A model generated the notes under the pieces. The model ran no database searches, was not told the DNA's origin, and worked only from the letters and a program-made list of their open reading frames with translations. The position numbers and the translations under genes were made by a program. Shown here piece after piece: positions 37,781 to 63,079 of a stretch of 64,000 nt of DNA. Each line of letters begins with the position of its first letter. Within the stretch, counting starts at the first letter, position 1. This DNA comes from a virus. The stretch covers positions 1 to 64,000 of the IMG/VR virus record IMGVR_UViG_3300032050_000036, one strand, 5' to 3'.

Positions 37781-39844
37781 TTGTTGGAGGAAAGGAAAAT
37801 AAAAAGACTAATACGCATAGCACTAGCCAGTTTCTTGGCCTTTGGTTGGCTTATAGTGGCTCCTACAGAGGCTAACTCTGATGATCCAATAGCAATTGCT
37901 GCCCAAGAAATACAAGACCTTAAAGACAGCGTAGAAGATCTTAATTATAAAGATGAGTTTAATAATTTAATAAATATAGCAGAAGAAAAATATAATGATG
38001 CCATACAGGCTAAACAAGATAGAGATAATGCATACGATATATATGACTCTGCGGTAATAACAGAAGCCACGGCAGTTGAAGAAAAAACATTAGCCCAATC
38101 AGCAGTAGATGGACAAACAGTAACAGTTGCTACAGCATTACAAGATAAAAATGATGCACAAGACGCCTTAGATATAGCCAATTTAAATGTTCAAACAACA
38201 CAAGCAGCAATTTCAAATGCTGGTAATTCAGGATTACAATATACAGTATATTATCTTACAAGAGGGTTTGGTGGAGTAGCAATTCCAAGCGGTGTTATAT
38301 GTACTGGAGTTTGGAATTCAAATTCAATGCAGCCACCAGTATGCGGTAGATATGAAGATTTTATAGTTAAATTTACTGGAACCATTACTGTTCCCTCTCA
38401 TTGGACCTCAACATATTTTGCAGGGTATACAGATGATGGATTTAAAATGTATATTAATGGACAACTTGCAGTAAATAACTGGGTGGAACAGGGAGTTAGA
38501 TGGAGTTCGTACTCTCCAGTTTATGATGTTAGCCAAGATAAAACTTTAGATGTAGAAATTTGGTGGTATAACGGAGGAGGCCCAGGATACTATCATCTTG
38601 GATGGGCAATTCCTGGAGGTTGGACTGGAGCAGGTTGCGATTATACTGGTGGATGGGGGGTAGGATTTAGTTGTAATCTTAATACATTTTCATATGGATC
38701 TGGTGCAACACAAGCACAAATAGATGCATATAATGAGGCAGTATCAGCACAACAAACAGCACAAAACAATTATAATAATAAACTTAGTACATATAATTCT
38801 GAAGTTCAAAACCTCACAACATTAAATCAAAACCTAACAACCGCTACACAAAACCTAACAACAGCACAACAAAACCTAACAGATGCTTTGGCTGCAAAAA
38901 ATAATGCTATTTCTGTTTATAATCAAGCAATTATTGATATGGATAATGCAATACAAAATGCTTGGGATTATTATGATGAGCAATTAGAAAGAGAAATACA
39001 AATTGCTATTGCTCAGGCAGCAGCAAATGCTGCAGCGAATCAACCAACACCTGTAGCAAGTCCAGACCCTGAGCCAACTGTAGAACCAACTCCAGAGCCA
39101 ACCGTAGAGCCAACACCTGAACCTACAGTAGAACCAACCCCTGAACCTACACCAGAACCAGAACCAACTCCTGAACCTACAATAGATCCAACTCCAGAGC
39201 CAGAGCCAACACCAGAACCAGAACCAACTATAGAGCCTACGCCAGAGCCTACTACTGATCCAACTCCTGAACCTACTCCTGGACCTGAACCAACACCAGA
39301 GCCAACCCCTGAAATAGATGATGAAATAAAAGAATTAATTCCTGAAAAGGGTACAGGAACAGCAGAAGATTTATCTGGAGTTATTGCTAATCTTACAAGC
39401 AAAGATAATAAGTTAGTTACACTTTCACCTGAGCAAGTGGCAGCAGTTAGCCAAACCCTTAAGTCTTTGACCCAAGAAGCAAAGGCAGAGGTAGCGCAAG
39501 ACTTAGGTATCAAGGCATCAGAAGTTGAAAAGATTGCAGAGGCAATGAAGTCTGATCCAGAAATTGCTACAGCGTTTGTAGAGTTTGAAAGCAGAGCAGC
39601 AGAAGCGGGGGATTCAGCAATGCCATTTACATTAGCAGACGCTATCACTGAAGTACAAACAGAAGCGTTTTTAGCAGACCCACTTGGGACATTAACAGAT
39701 ATAGATTTTGAAAAAGTACTAAGTCCTACAGAATGGGGTAAGGATATGACAGATGATCAAAGAGAGAAGGTTCAAGAGGTAGTCATTCCTGTTATTTTGG
39801 TAGGAAATATTGTTAGTTCAGTTATGTCACTAAGGAGGTTATAA
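37781..39844 (+). CDS. Exported PA14-like surface protein with Pro-Glu repeats
   Basis: This protein of about 687 residues has an N-terminal signal or membrane segment ([21 protein letters not shown]), a coiled coil (to about residue 145), a PA14-like glycan-binding domain (about 150-286; [20 protein letters not shown] and [20 protein letters not shown]), a second coiled coil with Asn/Leu/Thr repeats, a rod of about 15 PEPT-type repeats (about 426-510), a helical domain and a final hydrophobic segment with RRL end. It looks like a surface-displayed adhesin anchored at its C-terminus. The start codon is unclear: TTG at 37781, or AUA at 37799 placed eight bases after a ggagg. Confidence 0.68.
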
Positions 39845-41912: not shown

Positions 41913-42116
41913 ATGAATCATATGGGTATGGAAGACCTGTCTCCAGAGGAACAGGAATTTAGTATTTGGTTACAAAACGGCATCGAAAGAGGCTGGATTA
42001 GTGATCCTTATTGCCACACACATGACGGTGGCTATCAGTATATGAGTGAAGAAGAATTAGAAGAATGGGAAGCAGGAGGCGACCCATGTGAACATGTTTT
42101 GAGGATATTCATATAA
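41913..42116 (+). CDS. Small acidic protein, unknown
   Basis: This 67-residue protein is strongly acidic (SPEEQEFSIWLQNGIERGWI; MSEEELEEWEAGGDPCEHVL) with two His-rich spots (CHTHDGG and CEHV) that might bind metal. It is expressed from a leaderless consensus promoter and its stop overlaps the protease start by one base. Function unknown. Confidence 0.6.
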   Translation: MNHMGMEDLSPEEQEFSIWLQNGIERGWISDPYCHTHDGGYQYMSEEELEEWEAGGDPCEHVLRIFI

Positions 42117-43207
42117 TGAAAAAAATTTTTATAATTCTTGTTTTAATTTTTGGCATAACTCCAGCGCATGCAAATAATGGCAAAGATGCTACAGGAGATC
42201 CAAAAGTAGTAGCACTAATTCATTGGAATTCAGATAATACACAAGGCTGTTCGGGAGCATTAGTGGCCCCTCGTATTGTTTTTACAGCAGCACACTGCCT
42301 TTCAAGAATGCCAAAAAGTGGTAAATGGCAGCCAGACTATGACACAGAATTACCAGTTTCTGGTATGTTATCTGATAAAACTCCAATGTGGGTTTTATCC
42401 CCTGGCGAAAAAGTATATTTAGAAAATAATAAGCCAAATATAAATAGAGTAAAGGTTATTGCTCAATTTGCTTCAACAGAATACAAAGATTCTGGCTGTT
42501 TAAATAATGATAAAAGTTTATGTCATGGCTCTATAAATGATTTTGGTGTTTTAATTCTTGAAAAACCACTAGGAAATTCTTATTTTAAATATGCTTCAAA
42601 AGAAATTGTTCAGGAAATGGTTTTAAATAAATCAAAAATGTTAGCATTGGGATACGGAAGAAGTTCTGGTAATGATATTCAACCTAATCCAAATTTTATG
42701 GAAGTAACAGCAAACACTAAAGTTATGATTCAAAATAATAGTTTCTGTATTCTTACTAACAATAAATATTGTGAAGGATCTAATTTGGTTGTACATGCTA
42801 AAAATAAAGTTGGCGAACATTGGGGTGGAGGAGATTCTGGAAGTCCCCTATGGTATTTTTATCAAAACGAATGGCTTTATGTAGGAGCGATGAGTGGATC
42901 TGCTGGTTGTTCAGCAGAACATTATCCTAATGGCCCAACATGCCGAGATAAGTGGTGGAATGAAAATGGTTATGGAGAATACTGGACGGCTTTTTCTTAT
43001 AATGAAGTAATCTTAAAAGCAGAACTATTTCTAAAAACTCAAGAAGATAATGAAAATAAAACAAAAGAAAAACTATTGCCAAACCCTGAAATACAAAAAC
43101 AAACAAATATAGGTAAACAACTTAAGTGCAAACATAATAAAAGAAATATTATTATGAGCATAAAAGGAAAAAAATGTCCTAGTGGATACTCTTTTTATAA
43201 TGGATAA
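42116..43207 (+). CDS. Secreted trypsin-like serine protease
   Basis: This 363-residue protein has a signal peptide (KKIFIILVLIFGITPAHA) and a complete S1 triad: His in RIVFTAAHCLSRM (about residue 59), Asp in SINDFGVLILEKP (about residue 143) and Ser in GGGDSGSPLWYF (about residue 241). Several cysteines flank the active site and may form disulfides outside the cell. A C-terminal extension of about 60 residues is Lys/Asn-rich and may anchor to the wall or another protein. Extracellular proteases are rare in phages; it could remove surface proteins that hinder release or re-adsorption. The stop overlaps the next gene by eight bases. Confidence 0.85.
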   Translation: MKKIFIILVLIFGITPAHANNGKDATGDPKVVALIHWNSDNTQGCSGALVAPRIVFTAAHCLSRMPKSGKWQPDYDTELPVSGMLSDKTPMWVLSPGEKVYLENNKPNINRVKVIAQFASTEYKDSGCLNNDKSLCHGSINDFGVLILEKPLGNSYFKYASKEIVQEMVLNKSKMLALGYGRSSGNDIQPNPNFMEVTANTKVMIQNNSFCILTNNKYCEGSNLVVHAKNKVGEHWGGGDSGSPLWYFYQNEWLYVGAMSGSAGCSAEHYPNGPTCRDKWWNENGYGEYWTAFSYNEVILKAELFLKTQEDNENKTKEKLLPNPEIQKQTNIGKQLKCKHNKRNIIMSIKGKKCPSGYSFYNG

Positions 43208-43658
43208 AATTAATAATTTAGACGAAAATGTTTTTATTATAAAAAATTTTTTAAGCAATGATGAGTTTGATGATGCATTGCGTGGAGATTTTAATCTTAT
43301 TAAATTAAAAATTTCAAATATATTTAATAATCAATACTCAGTCAAAGGTTCTGGAAGAATTAGAGTTCTTAGTGTTGGAGAGTTTATGGAACCACATTCA
43401 GACCAGCACAAAGATAGTTGTAAGTGTGGATATTGTTCTTTAGGGCATAATAATAAAAAAATATATGCTGCCGTTATATATTTAAATGATGACTATTCTG
43501 GAGGAGAAATATTTTATACTAATAAAAATATTAAACATAAGCCATCAGCCAATAGTTTAATTTGTCATCCAGCATCAGAAGAATATACACATGAGGTTTT
43601 GCCAGTCCTTACTGGAGAAAGAAAATCAATTTCATTCTTTTTAACTGATGGTGTATAA
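43200..43658 (+). CDS. 2OG/Fe(II) oxygenase, prolyl 4-hydroxylase type
   Basis: This 152-residue protein has the complete ligand set: H66-x-D68 in EPHSDQHKD, H131 in EEYTHEV and R141 in TGERKSISFF for 2-oxoglutarate, with the YLNDDYSGGEIFY strand typical of the P4H family. Between the first ligands and this strand lies a small CKCGYC insertion, perhaps a zinc site. The ATG at 43200 is favoured over a GTG six codons earlier; there is an eight-base overlap with the protease gene. First gene of the oxygenase/glycosyltransferase cluster. Confidence 0.8.
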   Translation: MDKINNLDENVFIIKNFLSNDEFDDALRGDFNLIKLKISNIFNNQYSVKGSGRIRVLSVGEFMEPHSDQHKDSCKCGYCSLGHNNKKIYAAVIYLNDDYSGGEIFYTNKNIKHKPSANSLICHPASEEYTHEVLPVLTGERKSISFFLTDGV

Positions 43659-43659
43659 T
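43652..43659 (+). promoter_or_regulatory. -10 promoter containing the upstream stop codon
   Basis: TG followed directly by TATAAT, in which TAA is the stop of the oxygenase gene. The ATG at 43668 is eight bases on, with no Shine-Dalgarno; leaderless transcription is likely. Confidence 0.5.
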
Positions 43660-43667
43660 AAATAAAT

Positions 43668-44333
43668 ATGACTTTTAAAATAAAAAACAATATATCTGGA
43701 TCAGAATTTTGGGTAGATTCTGAATTTTTAAATTTTCCAGAGTTAGAAGAACAATCTTTTATACCAAGTAAGTGGTCTTGTTATAATAAAATAGGAGATG
43801 ACTATGATAATAAAATTATTAAGCCTGTTAATAAATATGTACTAGAACTTTATCCAAAACCAGAAATTATACAAAAAACAAATAATAAAATAGTTTTAAG
43901 ACAAAAGACACATGCTGAGATATGGGTTGAGCCATTAAAACGTTATTCAGAAGAAACTCTTTATGCATTAGATAAATGTCATCAAAGACAGTTTTATCCA
44001 TCTAGTTTTAAAATTTTTTCAGAGGAGTGTTTTTTGGCAACGTATAGATTTTATATGCCATGGTTTCCTGACTTAAGAACAAACATATTTTTTAAAAATA
44101 TAGAAGACGAATTCTCTCCGTTTAAAGTTAAAAATGATGCAGTTGTTTTTTATCCCCCAGAAAAAAATGATAAATATGTTAACACATGCTTTATACATTT
44201 TAATATTAAAAAAAATGGACCACACATGAAAGACGATAGGTATGGTATCATAGATATAGGATCTCCAATGTATGACATGGAGTTAAAGTTGGATGAAGAC
44301 ATAATAGAAAAGATTGCTAATGAGTATGAATGA
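43668..44333 (+). CDS. Unknown protein in the oxygenase cluster
   Basis: This 221-residue protein is not recognised. It is rich in aromatic residues and strands (FWVDSEFLNFPELEEQSFIP; AEIWVEPLKRYSEETLYALD; FLATYRFYMPWFPDLRTNIF; KYVNTCFIHFNIKKNGPHMK), suggesting a beta-sandwich or jelly-roll. The last part (YGIIDIGSPMYDMELKLDED) is acidic. The arrangement next to a DUF6065-like gene of similar size suggests they work together. No catalytic motif can be named. Confidence 0.55.
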   Translation: MTFKIKNNISGSEFWVDSEFLNFPELEEQSFIPSKWSCYNKIGDDYDNKIIKPVNKYVLELYPKPEIIQKTNNKIVLRQKTHAEIWVEPLKRYSEETLYALDKCHQRQFYPSSFKIFSEECFLATYRFYMPWFPDLRTNIFFKNIEDEFSPFKVKNDAVVFYPPEKNDKYVNTCFIHFNIKKNGPHMKDDRYGIIDIGSPMYDMELKLDEDIIEKIANEYE

Positions 44334-45051
44334 AGAAGAGTATCAGCAAATATCTTTTATTGGGCATAAAAGAGAAGGATATCCAGAGCCAGAGCCTTCT
44401 TATAAAAAAATACCACAATGGTACAGAGATTTAGCAAAACATGGCACTAGCAATGATTTAGCGGACTTAGACCCAATTAATGATAGAGGTGGCGACGGAT
44501 CAAATGTTTCTACAAAATTGTGTATGCCATTTTTTGATGCAATGGCATTAGGATATCAGTATCCTTTAGAAGATGACTTAACAGTAACATTAGACAAAAA
44601 CGGTAAACCTAAACTTAGTTGGTCAAAAGATTTTATGTTAATTGATAAAAGACCAACTGTGGATATGGCAGTACCAAAAGATGTACACCCTATACATTTT
44701 GGAATAAAAATGCATTGGTTTTATGAAACACCTCCAGGGTATTCTTTATTGATGACCAATCCAATTAATAGGCCAGACCTCCCATTCTGGACCCCAACAG
44801 GGATTGTCGATTCTGATATATGGGGTTTACCAATCTTTATGCCTTTTTTTATAAAAAGAGACTTTGAAGGGGTAATAAAGTCTGGGACACCTGTTTTTCA
44901 AATGATACCTATCAAAAGAGAACAGTGGGAGATGTCGTTTGACACATCCAAGGAGTCTATAGAAAAACATGATCTAAGATCAGAAAACAGAAGATCGCAT
45001 ATTACAGCACATTATCGTAAATTTGCGTGGAGAAAAAAAGAATATAGATAG
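44320..45051 (+). CDS. DUF6065-like protein
   Basis: This 243-residue protein contains the stretch PPGYSLLMTNPINRPDLPFW followed by TGIVDSDIWGLP and FQMIPIKREQWE, which resembles the DUF6065 family as I recall it (a beta-rich protein of unknown function found near glycan or oxygenase genes). The start of the protein (GHKREGYPEPEPSYKKIPQW) fits too. The ATG at 44320 or 44326 overlaps the previous gene; both are possible. It may bind a hydroxylated or glycosylated partner, but this is speculation. Confidence 0.55.
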   Translation: MSMNEEEYQQISFIGHKREGYPEPEPSYKKIPQWYRDLAKHGTSNDLADLDPINDRGGDGSNVSTKLCMPFFDAMALGYQYPLEDDLTVTLDKNGKPKLSWSKDFMLIDKRPTVDMAVPKDVHPIHFGIKMHWFYETPPGYSLLMTNPINRPDLPFWTPTGIVDSDIWGLPIFMPFFIKRDFEGVIKSGTPVFQMIPIKREQWEMSFDTSKESIEKHDLRSENRRSHITAHYRKFAWRKKEYR

Positions 45052-45057
45052 ATGTAG

Positions 45058-45063
45058 TATAAT
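45058..45063 (+). promoter_or_regulatory. Possible -10 hexamer (TATAAT)
   Basis: TATAAT lies seven bases after the DUF6065-like stop, without a TG extension at the right distance or a clear -35. It would give a short leader containing the ggaga Shine-Dalgarno of the next gene. Confidence 0.4.
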
Positions 45064-45092
45064 GTATAAAGACCAAAATGAATGGAGACAAT

Positions 45093-45740
45093 ATGATTGG
45101 CACTGATAATTTCAAAGAACATAAATTTTTTGAAAAATATTTAAATAATGATTTAAATGATTTACAACAATTCTTAGAAAAAAAATATGAACTAATTACT
45201 TCGGCACGATTAAGAGGGGTCGAAGAGTTAGGGGATAAGGATCTAGCCTGGACTTCTTCTGGAAGTATATCTACCGTTAAGTGGCAAGAATATAATGTTT
45301 TTCAACTATATCATCCTGGAATTTATAATTTATTTAATGCAATTTCTAACACCATGAAAGAGGCATGCGAATACTATGGTATAGATTTTGAAAAAGAAAA
45401 ATATTATGTACAGGGATGGTTCAATATAAATAATAAAGATACTGGCAAACTAGATTGGCATGATCATGGAGATGGCTTTGCGCCAAGATTTCATGGATAT
45501 TATTGTGTAAATGCAGAGCCTTCATCTACATATTATAAATTATTTAACGATGATAATAAAGTAGTTGAAAATATTAATAAAAATAATAGAATGATCATAT
45601 CTGAAATGGGGCATCCACATGCAATGGGTGACTGGTCTTGGAGTGGTCCAAGAATAACCATAGCGTATGACATAATGCCAATTAAGTTGTTGATCGAAAA
45701 TAATCTTACAATTGAGCAACACTGGATTCCGTTACTATGA
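45093..45740 (+). CDS. 2OG/Fe(II) oxygenase-like protein
   Basis: This 215-residue protein resembles the putative 2OG-Fe(II) oxygenase group with W-H-x-H motifs: DWHDHGDGF offers H125-x-D127 as metal ligands, followed by FHGYYCVNAEPSSTYYKLF, then H174 or H176 in EMGHPHAMGDW and R187 in GPRITIAYDI. The ATG at 45093 is preceded by ggaga at good spacing, whereas the ATG at 45078 has none. It overlaps the glycosyltransferase start by four bases, so the two are made together. Confidence 0.7.
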   Translation: MIGTDNFKEHKFFEKYLNNDLNDLQQFLEKKYELITSARLRGVEELGDKDLAWTSSGSISTVKWQEYNVFQLYHPGIYNLFNAISNTMKEACEYYGIDFEKEKYYVQGWFNINNKDTGKLDWHDHGDGFAPRFHGYYCVNAEPSSTYYKLFNDDNKVVENINKNNRMIISEMGHPHAMGDWSWSGPRITIAYDIMPIKLLIENNLTIEQHWIPLL

Positions 45741-46585
45741 ACACAATAGATGTTTTTATTTATGGATATAAAAGTAAACTTTTACCAGAGTCTGCTAGAT
45801 CAATTTTAGAAAATCAAAGCGGCAACTATCAAATAAATATAAAAGTTTATGATCAAATAAATTTAAACAGAAATGAAAAATTTAGTAATATTTCTTATAC
45901 GCATATTTTTTGGGATGATGTCAGATCTAAATTTTTATTTTTAGAAAATGAAATAAAACAATCAAATGCAGAATATTTTTTGTTTATTGATGGTGCAACC
46001 ATATTTCAAAAAAATTGGGATATGGAATTAGTTATGGGGCATGGAGGTAACAATGTTATTTTTTCTGGTAGACATAAAATAAATTTTAATAAAAATAATA
46101 TTTATAAATTTTATTCAGAATATACAAGGTCAGATCTTTCTTCAACAGAAATTACTAATTGGATAGTTAAAGATTTTGTTTTTATGAAAACAGAATTATT
46201 CAAGCAATTTCCATCTATATCTAGATTAAAGTATAGAGGATACGAAGAGGTATATTCTTTTTATGCTGCAGGAAAAAATATTCCAATTTTTGCAATCGCA
46301 ACAGCGTGGGCAGAAAACCATGAAGTTCCTATCGATAGTTTTGACTATCTTCCTTTTTCAATAAATAGTGGCTACAATGAATTAATCGATAACATTAAAG
46401 GTAATAATGAAATATTTTTAAAAAATCTAGATGGAGTTAAAAACCTATCAGAATTTCATTCATATGACTTTACTTTATTGTCCAAGGTCCCATTTATTCA
46501 AAATGACATAGAGTATGATCCAAGAATGGACCTAGACAATATGGATGGAGAACGCTTTCATAATGTTATTAAATCAATATATTAG
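45737..46585 (+). CDS. GT60-like (hydroxyproline GlcNAc-transferase type) glycosyltransferase
   Basis: This 282-residue protein has a GT-A glycosyltransferase pattern: SARSILENQS early, an arginine-containing WDDVRSKFLFLENEI helix, then AEYFLFIDGATIFQKNWDME (about 78-97). The last stretch matches the Y-x-L-x-I-D-x-H-x-x-F-x-x-x-W-D signature of GT60 enzymes, which transfer GlcNAc to hydroxyproline of Skp1 in Dictyostelium, except that the His after the Asp is replaced. A later VKDFVFMKTELFKQFP and RGYEEVYSFYAAG also fit. Neighbouring prolyl hydroxylase-like genes make the match meaningful. Donor sugar and target are unknown. Confidence 0.6.
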   Translation: MNTIDVFIYGYKSKLLPESARSILENQSGNYQINIKVYDQINLNRNEKFSNISYTHIFWDDVRSKFLFLENEIKQSNAEYFLFIDGATIFQKNWDMELVMGHGGNNVIFSGRHKINFNKNNIYKFYSEYTRSDLSSTEITNWIVKDFVFMKTELFKQFPSISRLKYRGYEEVYSFYAAGKNIPIFAIATAWAENHEVPIDSFDYLPFSINSGYNELIDNIKGNNEIFLKNLDGVKNLSEFHSYDFTLLSKVPFIQNDIEYDPRMDLDNMDGERFHNVIKSIY

Positions 46586-46590
46586 ATATA

Positions 46591-46599
46591 TGGTATAAT
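46591..46599 (+). promoter_or_regulatory. Extended -10 promoter (TGGTATAAT)
   Basis: A perfect TG-N-TATAAT lies in the 29-base gap between glycosyltransferase and next oxygenase, followed by a strong aaggagg Shine-Dalgarno. Confidence 0.65.
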
Positions 46600-46614
46600 G
46601 AAAAAGGAGGAAAA

Positions 46615-47178
46615 ATGATTACACAACCAGTAGTAATAGAAAATTTCATAGATCCAAAAGATGCTGAAGTTCTTCTAAAAGAAATGTCTAGTCCATCTGA
46701 GATAAACCCTTATCCTAATTACTATAAGACTAGATTTGGAGGAACTGGATATCCATATAATAAAACAGTTATTGAGTTGCACAAAAAATATTCTTTGTTA
46801 TCAAATAAAGTACATCAAGAATTAAATCCAGAAGAAACAAAAGAAATTAAAACATTCAAGGCTTTTGGTTCAACGTGGACTTCTGGTCAATACGGCCTTC
46901 CACATATTGATGATCAATATCCAGAAGAATTTATAGAATATAGCACAGTCATTTACTTAAACGATGAATTTACTGGAGGGAATATATTTTTCCCAGCACT
47001 GTCATATGAGTATGTACCTAAAAAATATTCAGGGGTATTCTTTTTAAGTAAAGGAAATCTATGGAAACATGGAATTACGCCAGTAGAAAGTGGAACCAGG
47101 TCAACATTGTTGTACATGCATACGACACAAACAGAGCATAAGGATGGATTTGTTATTATAGATCCAGACCTAAACTAG
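46615..47178 (+). CDS. 2OG/Fe(II) oxygenase, prolyl 4-hydroxylase type
   Basis: This 187-residue protein has H97-x-D99 in YGLPHIDDQYP, the STVIYLNDEFTGGNIFFP strands, H152 in LWKHGITPV and R162 in SGTRSTLLYM, i.e. all iron and 2-oxoglutarate ligands of the P4H family. The N-terminal part (MITQPVVIENFIDPKDAEVL) is the usual entry helix. It has its own promoter and a strong Shine-Dalgarno and is followed by another oxygenase-like gene after seven bases. Confidence 0.85.
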   Translation: MITQPVVIENFIDPKDAEVLLKEMSSPSEINPYPNYYKTRFGGTGYPYNKTVIELHKKYSLLSNKVHQELNPEETKEIKTFKAFGSTWTSGQYGLPHIDDQYPEEFIEYSTVIYLNDEFTGGNIFFPALSYEYVPKKYSGVFFLSKGNLWKHGITPVESGTRSTLLYMHTTQTEHKDGFVIIDPDLN

Positions 47179-47185
47179 GAGAGAA

Positions 47186-48007
47186 ATGGTTAATTTTAGA
47201 AATACTACATTTGCAATGCTAGAGAATCATCCAGATCAATCATCTATTGACTGGAAGTTTTGTACAAGAGACAACTATCTTAAGTTTGAGGAAATATTTC
47301 GTAAAAATGTGCTCTTCTTTGATCCATTTTTAGTAGAAGGGTTTTTTGAAAAACCTGACTTTGAAGAATTAAAAGGTATCTTAGAATCAAAAGATGTGCG
47401 TGAAATTGCTTATACTAAGCAAATGAATAAATGGGAAGATGCGGTTGAAATCCCTCAATATTTTTTTGATAAGGCGATTAAACGTACACAAGACCTTCTA
47501 GGCACCAACGATGTAGAGTTAGGATATTATCTATATGCTCATCATCAAATTACTGCTGAAGGACGCAAGCCATTCCTACAGGTTCATCTAGACTGGTCTC
47601 CAGGCTGCTACATGGTTGATCTTCATATCGGTGGTAATCGTGATTGGGGCTTTGTTGCTCACGATAAAGAGTTTATTACCAAGCCAAACGATGCAATTAT
47701 TGTACAGCCAGAACTAGACTTTCATTATCGTCCAGCATGGAATTCAGACGATCCAAATGAAAACTACAAAGTTTTATTTTTCCATCTTGTTCGTAAAGAT
47801 CATTGGAAAAATTTATATGGAGATGGCTTTATTAAAGATGCAGACTTCTTAGCATTTCAGAATCAGAGATTGCATATATGGCAAGAACTTTATGTTAATC
47901 ATGTAATATCAGTTCCTGGTCTACCAGCCCCAGTATTTAGTTCTGATGATGACTTAACAGAAGATGATAAAAGAATTTTTAATGTAGAAAAAAGGGTGGA
48001 AATGTAA
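47186..48007 (+). CDS. 2OG/Fe(II) oxygenase-like protein
   Basis: This 273-residue protein shows a jelly-roll pattern with H134-x-D136 in QVHLDWSPGCYMVDLHIGG and H180 in ELDFHYRPAW, followed by VLFFHLVRKDHW. Codons are of the highly expressed kind (CGT, ATC, CTT) compared with its neighbours, suggesting more protein or separate origin. The C-terminal tail (FSSDDDLTEDDKRIFNVEKR) is charged. Overlaps the next gene by one base. The assignment is less certain than for the P4H-type genes because the 2-oxoglutarate arginine is not evident. Confidence 0.6.
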   Translation: MVNFRNTTFAMLENHPDQSSIDWKFCTRDNYLKFEEIFRKNVLFFDPFLVEGFFEKPDFEELKGILESKDVREIAYTKQMNKWEDAVEIPQYFFDKAIKRTQDLLGTNDVELGYYLYAHHQITAEGRKPFLQVHLDWSPGCYMVDLHIGGNRDWGFVAHDKEFITKPNDAIIVQPELDFHYRPAWNSDDPNENYKVLFFHLVRKDHWKNLYGDGFIKDADFLAFQNQRLHIWQELYVNHVISVPGLPAPVFSSDDDLTEDDKRIFNVEKRVEM

Positions 48008-48684
48008 TGTTTACTTATGAAAAACTAGGAGATGGATTAATATATTATAAAAATATAATGCAGGATCCATATAAAATAATTGAAGATATAGAATTACTAA
48101 ATAACAAAGTTATTGAAGACTTAGAGAACAGGGTTGCTGGAGCAGAAGAAAGTTCTGCAAAGCCTTGGCATAATTGGGATCATGATCAGGACGATATGCA
48201 TTTACATTTTTGTAAACAAAGATGGCTACCAAGATCAGAAGATATGTCAAAAGATGATATTTATTATCAAGAACACTCCTCTATATCAGATAGATTATTT
48301 TTAGCATTAGACACAAGTTTTGAGCATTACTCAAAAGAACTATATCCTTATGCCTCAAGAAATATAAAAGGCAAAGAAGATAGAATGAGTATTTTAAAAT
48401 ATGAAAAAGCAGGGTATTTGCCTGCACACACAGACCATGGCTCAAGTAGCAGAACACTTTCTGTTGTTTTATATTTAAACGATAACTATGACGGAGGAGA
48501 GATAACATTTCCTCAAGTAGGAAACGGAGTAAAAATAAAGCCAGAGGCTGGAAGTGCAATATTTTTCCCATCAAATTATGTTTTTGTACATGAAGTTTCA
48601 GAGGTTTCAAATGGTATCAGATATGCTTTGCCTAACTGGTATCATAATATGATTAATAAAATATATACGGACGGTACAGAATGA
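48007..48684 (+). CDS. 2OG/Fe(II) oxygenase, prolyl 4-hydroxylase type
   Basis: This 225-residue protein contains H141-x-D143 in LPAHTDHGSSSRTLSVVLYL, the NYDGGEITFPQ strand, H195 in YVFVHEVSEV and R205 in GIRYALPNW: the full P4H-type ligand set. An N-terminal helical part of about 100 residues includes a DHDQDDMHLHF segment that might bind another metal. Starts in a one-base overlap with the previous gene and its stop overlaps a small gene (ATGA). Confidence 0.85.
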   Translation: MFTYEKLGDGLIYYKNIMQDPYKIIEDIELLNNKVIEDLENRVAGAEESSAKPWHNWDHDQDDMHLHFCKQRWLPRSEDMSKDDIYYQEHSSISDRLFLALDTSFEHYSKELYPYASRNIKGKEDRMSILKYEKAGYLPAHTDHGSSSRTLSVVLYLNDNYDGGEITFPQVGNGVKIKPEAGSAIFFPSNYVFVHEVSEVSNGIRYALPNWYHNMINKIYTDGTE

Positions 48685-51632: not shown

Positions 51633-52997
51633 ATGGCAAAAATAATTATTTTTGATTTAGATGGGGTTTTAATAGATAGCAAAGATATTCACTATAACGC
51701 ACTAAATAAAGCATTATGTGATATTGATGCTAAATATAAAATATCTTTTGAGGATCATATTAAAATATATAATGGTTTGCCTACTAAAGAAAAACTAAAA
51801 ATACTTTCAGAAAAAACTAATTTAGATAAAAGTACATTTGATATTATTAATAAAAATAAACAAAGTTATACATTCGACATGCTTAACGATGTTTCTGAAG
51901 ATATAGAATTAATAGAGTTATTTAAATTAATTAAAAATAATAATATAAAAATATGTGTTGCTAGTAATAGTATAAGAAAAACAGTTGAACTAATTTTAAC
52001 TAAGTTAAATATTATTGATCTAGTAGATTATATTGTTAGTAATGAAGATGTAAAAAATCCAAAACCATCCCCCGAGATGTATTGGAAGTGCATGTCAGAA
52101 TTCAATACAATACCAAAAGATGTTGTTATATTTGAAGATAGCATAATTGGTAAAATTGCCGTTCTAGATAGTGGTGCCAGCCTTGTTGAGATTAAAGATA
52201 GAAAAGATCTAACCTTAGAAAAAATAAATAATGCTATAAATATTTTAAAATATTCCAAACATTCTGTCTTAAATAAAAAAATAAATATTGTAATACCAAT
52301 GGCTGGAAAAGGTAGCAGATTTTTAGATGCAGGTTTTTCATTTCCAAAACCATTAATAGATATAAATGGTATGCCAATGATAGAGTTAGTTGTAAATAAT
52401 ATTGCACTAGAAGGAAACTATATATTTATAGTAAGAAAAGATCATTATGAAAAATATAATTTGCTTGAAATGTTAACAAGAATTGTTCCCGATTGCAAAA
52501 TTATAACTGTTGACGAGGAGCAAAGCGGGGCAGCATCAACCTGCTTATATGCAAAAAATTACATAAATACAGAGGATCCGTTATTTATTATAAATTCTGA
52601 TCAATATATAGATTGGAATCCTAAAGAATTTTTATACAATAATGTAATAAAAAATTTAGACGGATCAATATTGTTGTTTAAGTCTACTCATCCAAAATGG
52701 TCTTATGCAAAATTAGATGAATTCGGCATGGTAGTAGAAGTTGCCGAAAAGGTAGTTATAAGTGACAATGCTACTGTCGGTGGATATTACTGGGGAAGTG
52801 GACACAATTTTGTTAAATACGCAGAACAAATGATAGAAAAAAATATTCGTGTAAATAATGAATTTTATGTGTGTCCAGTATACAATGAGGCAATAAAAGA
52901 TAACAAAAAAATTGGATCATATTTTATTAATAAAATGTATGGATTGGGCACACCAGAAGATTTAGAAAAGTTTATGAGGTTTTATAATAATGATTAA
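51633..52997 (+). CDS. HAD phosphatase-nucleotidyltransferase fusion
   Basis: This 454-residue protein joins two enzymes. Residues 1-205 are a beta-phosphoglucomutase-type HAD phosphatase: IIFDLDGVLIDSKDI (catalytic Asp pair), CVASNSIRK, NPKPSPEMY and VIFEDSIIGK. Residues about 212-454 are a sugar-nucleotidyltransferase: NIVIPMAGKGSRFLDAGFSF then PKPLIDINGMPM, with INSDQYIDW as the metal-binding part and YGLGTPEDLEKF at the end. Such pairs make activated sugars or polyols for surface glycans. The second fusion in the window (61954-63054) has the opposite domain order. Confidence 0.85.
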   Translation: MAKIIIFDLDGVLIDSKDIHYNALNKALCDIDAKYKISFEDHIKIYNGLPTKEKLKILSEKTNLDKSTFDIINKNKQSYTFDMLNDVSEDIELIELFKLIKNNNIKICVASNSIRKTVELILTKLNIIDLVDYIVSNEDVKNPKPSPEMYWKCMSEFNTIPKDVVIFEDSIIGKIAVLDSGASLVEIKDRKDLTLEKINNAINILKYSKHSVLNKKINIVIPMAGKGSRFLDAGFSFPKPLIDINGMPMIELVVNNIALEGNYIFIVRKDHYEKYNLLEMLTRIVPDCKIITVDEEQSGAASTCLYAKNYINTEDPLFIINSDQYIDWNPKEFLYNNVIKNLDGSILLFKSTHPKWSYAKLDEFGMVVEVAEKVVISDNATVGGYYWGSGHNFVKYAEQMIEKNIRVNNEFYVCPVYNEAIKDNKKIGSYFINKMYGLGTPEDLEKFMRFYNND

Positions 52998-53431: not shown

Positions 53432-54022
53432 ATGGAAAATAGAATATTATATGGACATAAAACTCAGCCAAAATTATTAGAAAATTTTAATTTTAAATAT
53501 ATAAAAAATTTTGATATTTTTAAAATTAAAAACGAAATATTATTATTTGATAAAGAGTGGAATGAAGACTCCTCTAGACAAGAAAAATATGCTGCTCATT
53601 CTAAAACATTTTCTTATTTTTGTTATGATTATTCAGAGTTTTCTCAACAAGATGAAGCATATACACTACAAACCAAAACAACAAATGATAAAGTATTGGA
53701 ACTAGTAGAGCCTATCATTAAAGATTTGGAAGAAATTCATAAAGGTAAAAGAGGAAAAGTTCTTTTTATAAAATTGCCGTCTCGGTGCGAAATTAATATA
53801 CACAGAGATAGAGGATATTATTTAGGAATAATAAGAAGGCATCATATACCAATAATAACCAACAATGAATGTATTTTTGAGGTTAACTGTGATATGCTTA
53901 ATATGTTGGAGGGAGAGTGTTGGGAAATAAATAATTCAAAATATCATTATGTTAACAATAATGGTGAAACAGATAGAGTTCATCTAATGATAGATATTAT
54001 TCCTAACAAATTTATAAAATGA
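53432..54022 (+). CDS. Aspartyl/asparaginyl beta-hydroxylase-like oxygenase
   Basis: This 196-residue protein matches the AspH-like 2OG oxygenase family: H124-x-D126 in INIHRDRGYY, RRHHIPIITNNECIFEVN, GECWEINNSKYHYVNN with H172, and R182 in DRVHLMIDII. All key residues are present. It is a separate oxygenase branch from the P4H-type genes. It sits between the GDPD-like gene and the APS kinase-like gene. Substrate unknown. Confidence 0.8.
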   Translation: MENRILYGHKTQPKLLENFNFKYIKNFDIFKIKNEILLFDKEWNEDSSRQEKYAAHSKTFSYFCYDYSEFSQQDEAYTLQTKTTNDKVLELVEPIIKDLEEIHKGKRGKVLFIKLPSRCEINIHRDRGYYLGIIRRHHIPIITNNECIFEVNCDMLNMLEGECWEINNSKYHYVNNNGETDRVHLMIDIIPNKFIK

Positions 54023-60419: not shown

Positions 60420-60571
60420 TTATTTTGCTCTTTGTTAATTAAGTCTACTATTTCTTTTGCATATTTGTCATAATCTATTTCAATAATAAAATTTCCGTCA
60501 ATTAATTTATGAATTTTAATTTCTTTTCCTATTTCAAATAAAATATTTTTAATTTTATCTTCTATATTCAT
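60416..60571 (-). CDS. Small protein at the end of the minus-strand operon
   Basis: A 51-residue frame begins MNIEDKIKNILFEIGKEIKI, in an ATGA overlap with the GT61-like gene stop, and ends with VDLINKEQNN. It is an alpha/beta protein of unknown function. It converges with a plus-strand gene with a four-base overlap at the ends. Confidence 0.6.
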   Translation of the reverse strand: MNIEDKIKNILFEIGKEIKIHKLIDGNFIIEIDYDKYAKEIVDLINKEQNN

Positions 60572-61632: not shown

Positions 61633-61957
61633 TTTTTGTTACAACAACCTTATCATTAGGCAAACTTGGAGTTTTTACACAAACAACTGAACACTCTGTT
61701 ATAAAATTTACATCCGTTATTTCGTACGGCTCCAATATAAAAACATCGCCAGATATTAATTTTTTACCATTTAGAATCATTTCTCCAGATATTAACAAGT
61801 TTATTTCATATGCTATCTCTTGATAATGAAGGTCCCAATTTTCTCCAGCAGTATGTATTCTCCATGAAACTTCAAAATCTTTTGACTGAAAGGCAGCCTT
61901 TTCAAAATCTCCAATAAACCATCCCTTTTCAGTATTTTCAATTCTGCTAATCTTCAT
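61625..61957 (-). CDS. Cupin-domain protein
   Basis: This 110-residue protein has a single cupin barrel: WRIHTAGENWDLHYQEIAYE with the His/Glu metal ligands and LISGEMILNGKKLISGDVFI with ILEPYEITDV. Sugar-nucleotide isomerases and epimerase-like proteins of polysaccharide loci often have this fold, but the reaction here is unknown. It overlaps both neighbours (four bases upstream, eight downstream) in the minus operon. Confidence 0.7.
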   Translation of the reverse strand: MKISRIENTEKGWFIGDFEKAAFQSKDFEVSWRIHTAGENWDLHYQEIAYEINLLISGEMILNGKKLISGDVFILEPYEITDVNFITECSVVCVKTPSLPNDKVVVTKNV

Positions 61958-63054
61958 AAACCTAATTTATCCCATTCAGTCTCTTCAAATCCTTGATCAG
62001 TTATAAGGTTTATAGAAGTAGCACGATCCCTATCTGACTCTAAATGTTTATCATTAATTAAAATTCTTTCGCCACTAGTTACTCCCATCACTAACTGATC
62101 CCAGCAAAGACCTAGGTCTGTTAGTTGTTTTTCTGTTAGCATCCTTGCAGATTCTTTCCTAGCAGTCGTTAGAATTATCTTATGACCCTTAGAGTCCCAT
62201 TCATTAAACTTATCTATTACGCCTTTTAATGCTATGGCTGGTTCAAATCCGACATAACTAAATCTATGGACATGTTTAATTATTGTTCCATCTATATCAC
62301 AAAAAATAGTTTTAGGTTTTTCAGTATAGTATTCTCTTAGTTTACTGGAATATACTTCTAAATCTTGCGGGGTTCCAAGAGATATATAACCATTTCTTGG
62401 CATTTTAAAGGGAAGTATGTTAAGACCTTCTTCTATTAAATAATTATAAGTGGAGGAAATATAACATTCGCTAAATCCTTTTAGTCTATACTCTGAAATT
62501 AATTTTTTTGCTGATCTTATAAAATCAGAACCACGCCTCCAATAATGTATACCTACAAGCGCATCCTCACTTATAACCTTTTTTTCTTCAATATTTACAA
62601 TCCTGTTGTTATCTATAACTGCAAAACTATTCTTAATGTCATTAGATTTAAAAATAGCAACTGACCCATCGCAATATGCAGATCTTGATAGTTCTAAAAA
62701 TTTATCTGAATCCCACCTTAAAAGTTGATCACAGTTTGTTATTATTAATTCATCGTTGTTGTCTATATATTCTTTTGCATAAAGGGCTGCATCTGCAGCA
62801 CCATATTGATCGTTATCTAAACATATTTCTATACAATCTGGCTTTAATTTTTTTAATATAGAAGACAGCCTATTGTTATGCTCAGGGTTTTCATATTTTC
62901 TTGTAATAAATATATATTGACCCACTATATTTAAAGAATCAACGGCATGCTCAATTAAATGTTTTTTATCTACCATGATTAATGGTTTTGGTTCTTGTAC
63001 CCCTGCATTTTTGAAGCGGGAACCCAGTCCAGCCATTGGTATAACTATATTCAA
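61954..63054 (-). CDS. Nucleotidyltransferase-HAD phosphatase fusion
   Basis: This 366-residue protein starts at TTG with an aaggag Shine-Dalgarno six bases before. Residues 1-240 are a sugar-nucleotidyltransferase (NIVIPMAGLGSRFKNAGVQE, PKPLIMVDKK, TNCDQLLRW, SLGTPQDLEVYS). Residues about 255-366 are a short HAD phosphatase (TIFCDIDGTIIKHVHRFS; KIILTTARKESARMLTE; ILINDKHLESDRDRA) without a cap domain. The domain order is opposite to that at 51633-52997, and the HAD type differs. Likely makes an activated sugar or polyol for the GT61-like enzymes. Confidence 0.85.
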   Translation of the reverse strand: MNIVIPMAGLGSRFKNAGVQEPKPLIMVDKKHLIEHAVDSLNIVGQYIFITRKYENPEHNNRLSSILKKLKPDCIEICLDNDQYGAADAALYAKEYIDNNDELIITNCDQLLRWDSDKFLELSRSAYCDGSVAIFKSNDIKNSFAVIDNNRIVNIEEKKVISEDALVGIHYWRRGSDFIRSAKKLISEYRLKGFSECYISSTYNYLIEEGLNILPFKMPRNGYISLGTPQDLEVYSSKLREYYTEKPKTIFCDIDGTIIKHVHRFSYVGFEPAIALKGVIDKFNEWDSKGHKIILTTARKESARMLTEKQLTDLGLCWDQLVMGVTSGERILINDKHLESDRDRATSINLITDQGFEETEWDKLGL

Positions 63055-63070: not shown

Positions 63071-63079
63071 TGTTATAAT
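63071..63079 (+). promoter_or_regulatory. Plus-strand extended -10 promoter
   Basis: TGTTATAAT lies eight bases before the ATG at 63088, with no Shine-Dalgarno; the transcript would be nearly leaderless. The hexamer overlaps the minus-strand -10 by two bases. Confidence 0.65.

Follow-up and report, generated by a model that had tools for sequence, protein, structure and literature searches.

The 64,000-nucleotide stretch of viral DNA analyzed here (the window) represents bases 1-64000 of the 113,498-base virus record IMGVR_UViG_3300032050_000036. At 43182-48684 it carries an apparently undescribed gene cassette in which 2-oxoglutarate (2OG)-Fe(II) oxygenases of the prolyl 4-hydroxylase (P4H) type accompany a glycosyltransferase (GT) related to family GT60, and the most likely predicted function of the cassette is to hydroxylate and glycosylate a protein. 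The identities of the genes, the conservation of the unit, its catalytic residues, and its association with tail-fiber repeats of the form (F/Y)(S/T)P(F/Y) are established below. Protein or glycan modification of some kind is highly probable. The narrower interpretation, that the cassette would hydroxylate and then glycosylate a protein, with the tail fibers of the phage itself as the likeliest target, is the one we tentatively favor, and we judge its chances to fall a little short of even.

Organization and conservation of the cassette

An earlier reading of the window (the original prediction) had placed five oxygenase-like genes around a GT60-like GT. All of the open reading frames noted at this locus were confirmed, on the + strand, head to tail and tightly packed, with several overlapping by 1-20 bases. 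Start positions were revised from 43200 to 43182 (43200 is an internal ATG of the frame that begins with GTG at 43182), from 44320 to 44314, and from 45093 to 45078. The genes are as follows.

43182-43658, + strand: P4H/PHD-type 2OG-Fe(II) oxygenase (PF13640, E 4.6e-11; H72-x-D74, H137, R147; GTG start)
43668-44333, + strand: unkA, core cassette gene, probably a distant DUF6065 relative (hhalign 68.6%)
44314-45051, + strand: DUF6065/phrog_7084 protein, core cassette gene (phrog_7084, E 2.1e-34)
45078-45740, + strand: oxD, conserved H-x-H...H...R protein, oxygenase-like by resemblance only
45737-46585, + strand: GT60-related GT-A glycosyltransferase (PF11397 in relatives; hhalign 97.7%; Foldseek)
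46615-47178, + strand: oxB, P4H-type 2OG oxygenase, core cassette gene (PF13640, E 4.5e-6; HxD/H/R in 25/25)
47186-48007, + strand: possible oxygenase, accessory (H134-L-D136, H180; weak PHROG matches)
48007-48684, + strand: oxC, P4H/PHD-type 2OG oxygenase, core cassette gene (PF13640, E 5.7e-17)

Scans of IMG/VR yielded 17 DUF6065 loci and 66 GT loci, and the GT loci formed 40 groups at 90% clustering. Co-occurrence was counted in the 34 GT clusters with at least 3 kb of flank on both sides. The oxC family was found in 34/34 clusters, 43668-like and DUF6065 genes in 33/34, oxB in 29/34, 45078-like genes in 17/34, and 47186 in 4/34. At least two oxygenase-family genes lay within 5 kb in every one of the 34, and a NodU-type carbamoyltransferase was present in 19. 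Because this gene set recurs in relatives whose cassette GTs are about 25-48% identical, its assembly is not due to chance. The cassette occupies two genomic settings, either near the terminase and the region of a Pro-rich PEPT rod or inside a tail-fiber operon. The original prediction had named a lack of co-occurrence in relatives as an outcome that would speak against it; co-occurrence was consistent across the 34 clusters. These data indicate that the cassette is a real, conserved unit.

Directly upstream of the cassette, at window 42116-43207, is a predicted exported trypsin-like protease; in many relatives, this slot holds a different exported protein, in some cases Pro-rich. The host of the window phage is likely actinobacterial, because its large terminase resembles those of Streptomyces phages (56% identical, e.g., Yaboi and LukeCage).

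Oxygenase-type genes

The 43182, oxB, and oxC products matched PF13640 in Pfam, with the E values listed above, and phrog_61 among the PHROG profiles; some PHROG matches carried a DNA metabolism label. In alignments, the oxB ligands H97/D99/H152/R162 were invariant in 25/25 relatives and the oxC ligands H141/D143/H195/R205 were kept in 36-38 of 38. Inspection of 43182 gave H72-S-D74, H137, and R147. The spacing from the second His to the Arg was 10 residues in the oxygenases, the same as in Dictyostelium PhyA (H266 and R276; PMC7864055). These sequence features confirmed all three as P4H/PHD-type 2OG oxygenases with complete H-x-D...H...R sets. The 43182 product aligned with the oxC family (hhalign 99.1%), is outside the conserved core, and as a best match was confined to the window phage's own contigs.

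The solved structures nearest to the oxC-family profile were bacterial P4H (3itq/5hv0, E 8e-9), followed by P3H1, PiuC, PHD2, and LH3, and those nearest to the oxB-family profile were bacterial P4H (E 2e-6) and P3H1. A fit of the oxygenases to nucleotide or small-molecule families had been raised as a check on the original prediction, and the nearest structures proved to be protein prolyl/lysyl hydroxylases. On these resemblances, oxB and oxC are candidate prolyl hydroxylases.

Of the five oxygenase-like proteins first proposed, the other two, 45078 and 47186, are less certain. Residues H128-x-H130, H181, and R192 of 45078 were kept in 29/33 relatives, and its best PHROG match was the unannotated family phrog_2696. 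It had no meaningful Pfam match, no match to PDB sequences, and no hhalign link to oxygenase families. We set it aside as a known oxygenase, since only the H-x-H...H...R pattern spoke for this assignment and the profile searches returned no oxygenase family; it is oxygenase-like by resemblance only. The 47186 product had no Pfam match and only weak PHROG matches. It carries H134-L-D136 and a later H180, is homologous to the 31039 product of the window phage (hhalign 95.2%), and has a relative that adjoins a carbamoyltransferase gene in the related phage G020; it is a possible oxygenase, and the assignment is weak. Outside the cassette, window 53432-54022 encodes a further hydroxylase-type protein of the Aspartyl/asparaginyl beta-hydroxylase family (PF05118, E 3.5e-15).

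Glycosyltransferase

The GT segment AEYFLFIDGATIFQKNWD, which the original prediction had likened to GT60 enzymes, was found in its expected place in the 45737 product. The window protein itself scored below the Pfam cut-off of 21 bits for PF11397 (GlcNAc, GT60), at 13 bits (E 0.069), whereas the GT of the relative L010 scored above it, at 26.2 bits. PF11397 was matched at E<=0.01 by 17 of the 30 members of the GT alignment; among these 17, the protein at L066:13571-14563 (55 bits) is not the cassette GT but a further, more canonical GT60-type protein. When a profile of 37 cassette GTs was set against two GT60-type phage proteins in hhalign, the result was 97.7% (E 1.6e-12), and a reversed control gave 0.1%. 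An AlphaFold2 model of 45737 (predicted local distance difference test [pLDDT] score 74) had a GT-A fold and matched GT-A enzymes in Foldseek, including heparosan synthase and GalNAc-T2, at E about 1e-8. The WD and GEE motifs were conserved in the cassette GTs. Together, these data place 45737 in a phage family with kinship to the GT60 polypeptide N-acetylglucosamine (GlcNAc) transferases, and its predicted function follows from that kinship. According to PMC8724618, the characterized GT60 members are polypeptide alpha-GlcNAc-transferases, and they either modify the hydroxyproline of Skp1 or take part in mucin-type glycosylation.

A tblastn search of 50,697 cultured-phage records with the window and L010 GTs gave no match, and no relative was found in the bacterial/archaeal genome collection, which was searched with a single narrow peptide pattern. 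In two relatives, a second, more canonical GT60-type protein (L066:13571-14566 and L058:6044-7021) adjoins the carbamoyltransferase.

DUF6065-type proteins

The original prediction had left two proteins of the cassette unrecognized. One of them, 44314, matched phrog_7084 as listed and PF19541 (DUF6065) at E 6.6e-4, which is under the Pfam cut-off. The other, 43668, had no significant Pfam or PHROG match and is probably a distant DUF6065 relative, as its hhalign comparison suggests (68.6%, E 4.6e-5). In Foldseek, an AlphaFold2 model of 44314 (pLDDT 84) had low-scoring matches that were all of the dUTPase/dCTP deaminase fold (E 1.2e-3 at best), which weakly suggests a dUTPase-like fold for these proteins. 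DUF6065 also occurs in haloarchaeal tailed viruses, and in HF2 it adjoins virion and baseplate genes. In bacterial genomes it was mostly next to unrelated genes, e.g., those for TPR proteins, with oxygenase neighbors only at L502 and L514. A literature search on DUF6065 found nothing.

Beside the second YSFTP-repeat tail protein of the window phage (see below), L023:889-3111 (record about 101889-104111) carries a DUF6171 protein, a sulfotransferase-like gene, and a second DUF6065 gene. In G022, a relative without the cassette GT, L202:146-6842 has several P4H-like genes in a row, together with two DUF6065 genes, near a tail gene with FPPFF repeats.

Candidate acceptor

About a dozen GT clusters have a gene for an FGF(S/T)P-repeat FnIII tail fiber upstream of the cassette, either adjoining it or one to a few genes off. 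Outside the window, at record 89607-91715 and 100692-101840, the window phage encodes two tail proteins that hold 41 and 18 YSFTP copies. The repeat DNA pattern was present in 14/20 cassette-bearing records, with 39 matches in the window phage and 0 for the reversed pattern, and a longer-spaced version was present in two further cassette records.

We also performed the test in reverse, picking contigs solely by a three-copy (F/Y)(S/T)P(F/Y) repeat pattern. All counts from this test are among the matches listed, in which 21 contigs were previously unseen; 21 collagen-repeat (GPX) contigs of at least 45 kb each served as the control. The cassette GT was found in 11/21 repeat contigs compared to 2/21 (weak) collagen contigs (Fisher p = 0.006), and a 45078-like gene in 16/21 compared to 1/21 (weak; Fisher p = 3e-6). 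In 15 of the 16 contigs, the 45078-like gene was no more than 3.5 kb from the repeat (median 1.15 kb), which 0/20,000 random placements reached.

The PEPT rod at 37781-39844, which the original prediction had offered as an example of an acceptor, was not supported. The rod is present in cassette-bearing phages and also in G020, a relative without the cassette GT, and is therefore not a specific partner. The placement of the cassette within the tail-fiber operon in one phage group also counts against the rod, and it is not favored. On the sequence evidence, the (F/Y)(S/T)P(F/Y) tail-fiber repeats are the best candidate acceptor.

Other features of these tail genes were also observed. The approximately 41 YSFTP copies at L022:7607-9715 (record 89607-91715) are interleaved with about five thrombospondin-type-1-like segments (WGPC...QxRTR...C...C), and a few genes past this tail gene are one gene resembling GDP-mannose epimerase and one weakly resembling O-FucT. 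The FGFSP-repeat tail fibers at L064:5236-6564, L078:5198-6574, and similar loci have by appearance a C-terminal Hint/intein-like domain (CIDGET...THNK).

Proposed mechanism and alternatives

In the scheme that we infer, which includes the enzyme activities, the substrate, the order of steps, the sugar, and the linkage, oxB, oxC, and possibly 45078 and 47186 would hydroxylate residues in Pro-containing, low-complexity (F/Y)(S/T)P(F/Y)x repeats. The GT60-related transferase would then place an N-acetylhexosamine on the polypeptide, either on hydroxyproline or on a neighboring Ser/Thr, and in many relatives the NodU-type carbamoyltransferase may later decorate the glycan. The acceptors in the window phage would be the two YSFTP-repeat tail proteins at record 89607-91715 and 100692-101840. 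The hydroxylate-then-glycosylate system that was originally proposed is thus retained in its P4H-type oxygenases, its GT60-related transferase, and their co-occurrence, but not in its acceptor. A fuller version, with a mobile multi-oxygenase cassette in tailed phages that puts hydroxyproline-linked glycans on their own tail-fiber repeats in an extensin-like or Skp1-like manner, and with DUF6065-type proteins as dedicated partners, is speculative, and we consider it, and with it specifically hydroxyproline-linked glycans, unlikely.

Several observations weigh against sequential modification of the tail-fiber repeats. The contigs of the reverse test probably stem from related phages rather than from independent events, and common descent may account for the association of repeat and cassette. 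A gap of 40-55 kb separates the cassette of the window phage from its repeat genes. In six near-complete genomes, Pro-repeat genes as a class were no nearer to oxygenase genes than expected (5/16 vs 5.5). Among 17 terminase relatives, the repeat was absent (the sole pattern match has a stop codon) and the cassette GT was clearly present in three. The cassette-bearing G032-G034 lack the strict repeat pattern. The metal-binding DxD/DxH is not strictly kept in the GT, being D-G-A in the window and mostly S/G-D-N in relatives. Finally, the 45078-like gene of G020 lies beside a tail gene with proline-free GFSHY repeats; because these lack proline, Ser/Thr may outweigh Pro.

This last case leads to the foremost alternative, in which the GT O-glycosylates Ser/Thr in the tail repeats and hydroxylation occurs independently elsewhere (on Pro, His, Tyr, or Phe), so that no single residue would undergo both steps in turn. 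In its favor are the mucin-type enzymes within GT60 (PMC8724618), the match of the GT model to GalNAc-T2, a Ser/Thr enzyme, and the Ser or Thr kept in the GFSHY repeat. However, the nearest solved structures of oxB and oxC are those of prolyl and lysyl hydroxylases, both genes accompany the GT in the cassette of nearly all relatives, and the FGAFG repeats of G033 offer no regular Ser/Thr; we consider this explanation unlikely. Somewhat further down the scale is a pathway that makes or tailors a glycan or secreted metabolite, such as a host-surface polysaccharide that blocks superinfection. The carbamoyltransferase in 19/34 clusters and the GT61 and sugar nucleotidyltransferase/HAD genes in other parts of the window would suit such a pathway, yet no scaffold-building enzymes were recognized in the cassette, the oxygenase profiles indicate protein hydroxylases, and one group has the cassette within the tail-fiber operon, all of which make it quite improbable.

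Modification of a host protein, with a translation factor or surface protein hydroxylated and glycosylated during infection, has a precedent in a bacterial PHD that hydroxylates EF-Tu (PMC7864055) and in the wide distribution of EGLN3-like phage 2OG oxygenases (PMC12774648). It seems highly improbable, as the cassette is associated with phage tail-repeat genes and no host target was identified. Least probable is DNA hypermodification of the TET/JBP-plus-glucosyltransferase kind. Its indications are a weak Tet_JBP match of oxC (E 0.0063, under the Pfam cut-off) and the DNA metabolism label on some PHROG matches; TET, JBP, and AlkB were all missing among the nearest solved structures of oxB and oxC, and the GT relates to GT60, with polysaccharide and polypeptide transferases as its nearest folds.

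Two fusions of HAD phosphatase and sugar nucleotidyltransferase, with opposite domain orders, are at window 51633-52997 and 61954-63054 (-). Close to the latter are two genes of GT61 type, one at 60568 (-) and the other, so assigned by resemblance, at 63079.

Comparison with known systems

No comparable phage system was described in the open-access literature searched, a scope that excludes subscription papers and preprints. Many phage 2OG oxygenases have no assigned substrate, and this cassette together with a defined tail-fiber repeat provides a concrete, testable substrate hypothesis. Should it be correct, tailed phages would join the known users of hydroxylation-linked protein glycosylation, with consequences for our view of how aquatic phages make or shield their adhesins.

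The Skp1 pathway of Dictyostelium and Toxoplasma (PhyA plus Gnt1, GT60) likewise has a PHD-type oxygenase beside a GT60-related transferase, with H-x-D...H...R ligands and the 10-residue His-Arg spacing of DdPhyA (PMC7864055). A dual-function P4H/GlcNAc-transferase has been reported in a plant pathogen, according to a reference in PMC8724618. In contrast to the Skp1 pathway, the cassette is phage-encoded, with two to six oxygenase-family genes, DUF6065-type genes, often a carbamoyltransferase, and no Skp1; the window GT itself is below the GT60 Pfam cut-off, and the acceptor is here only a candidate.

In Mimivirus, the collagen hydroxylation enzyme is a lysyl hydroxylase. That virus also hydroxylates and glycosylates its own repeat protein, as cited in PMC8968730. 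However, the repeats there are collagen, whereas the phage cassette combines P4H/PHD-type enzymes and a GT60-related transferase with F(S/T)P repeats, and the collagen-like GPX-repeat contigs among the matches listed seldom carry it. Plant extensins, which are hydroxyproline-rich glycoproteins, also have Pro-containing repeats that are hydroxylated and then glycosylated (PMC8724618); their repeats, sugars, and transferases differ from those predicted for the phage. Among phages, oxB, oxC, and 43182 match the 2OG-Fe(II) oxygenase family phrog_61, and EGLN3-like phage proteins have been described (PMC12774648). Those oxygenases were reported as auxiliary genes, whereas those described here regularly occur alongside a GT60-related transferase as part of one cassette.

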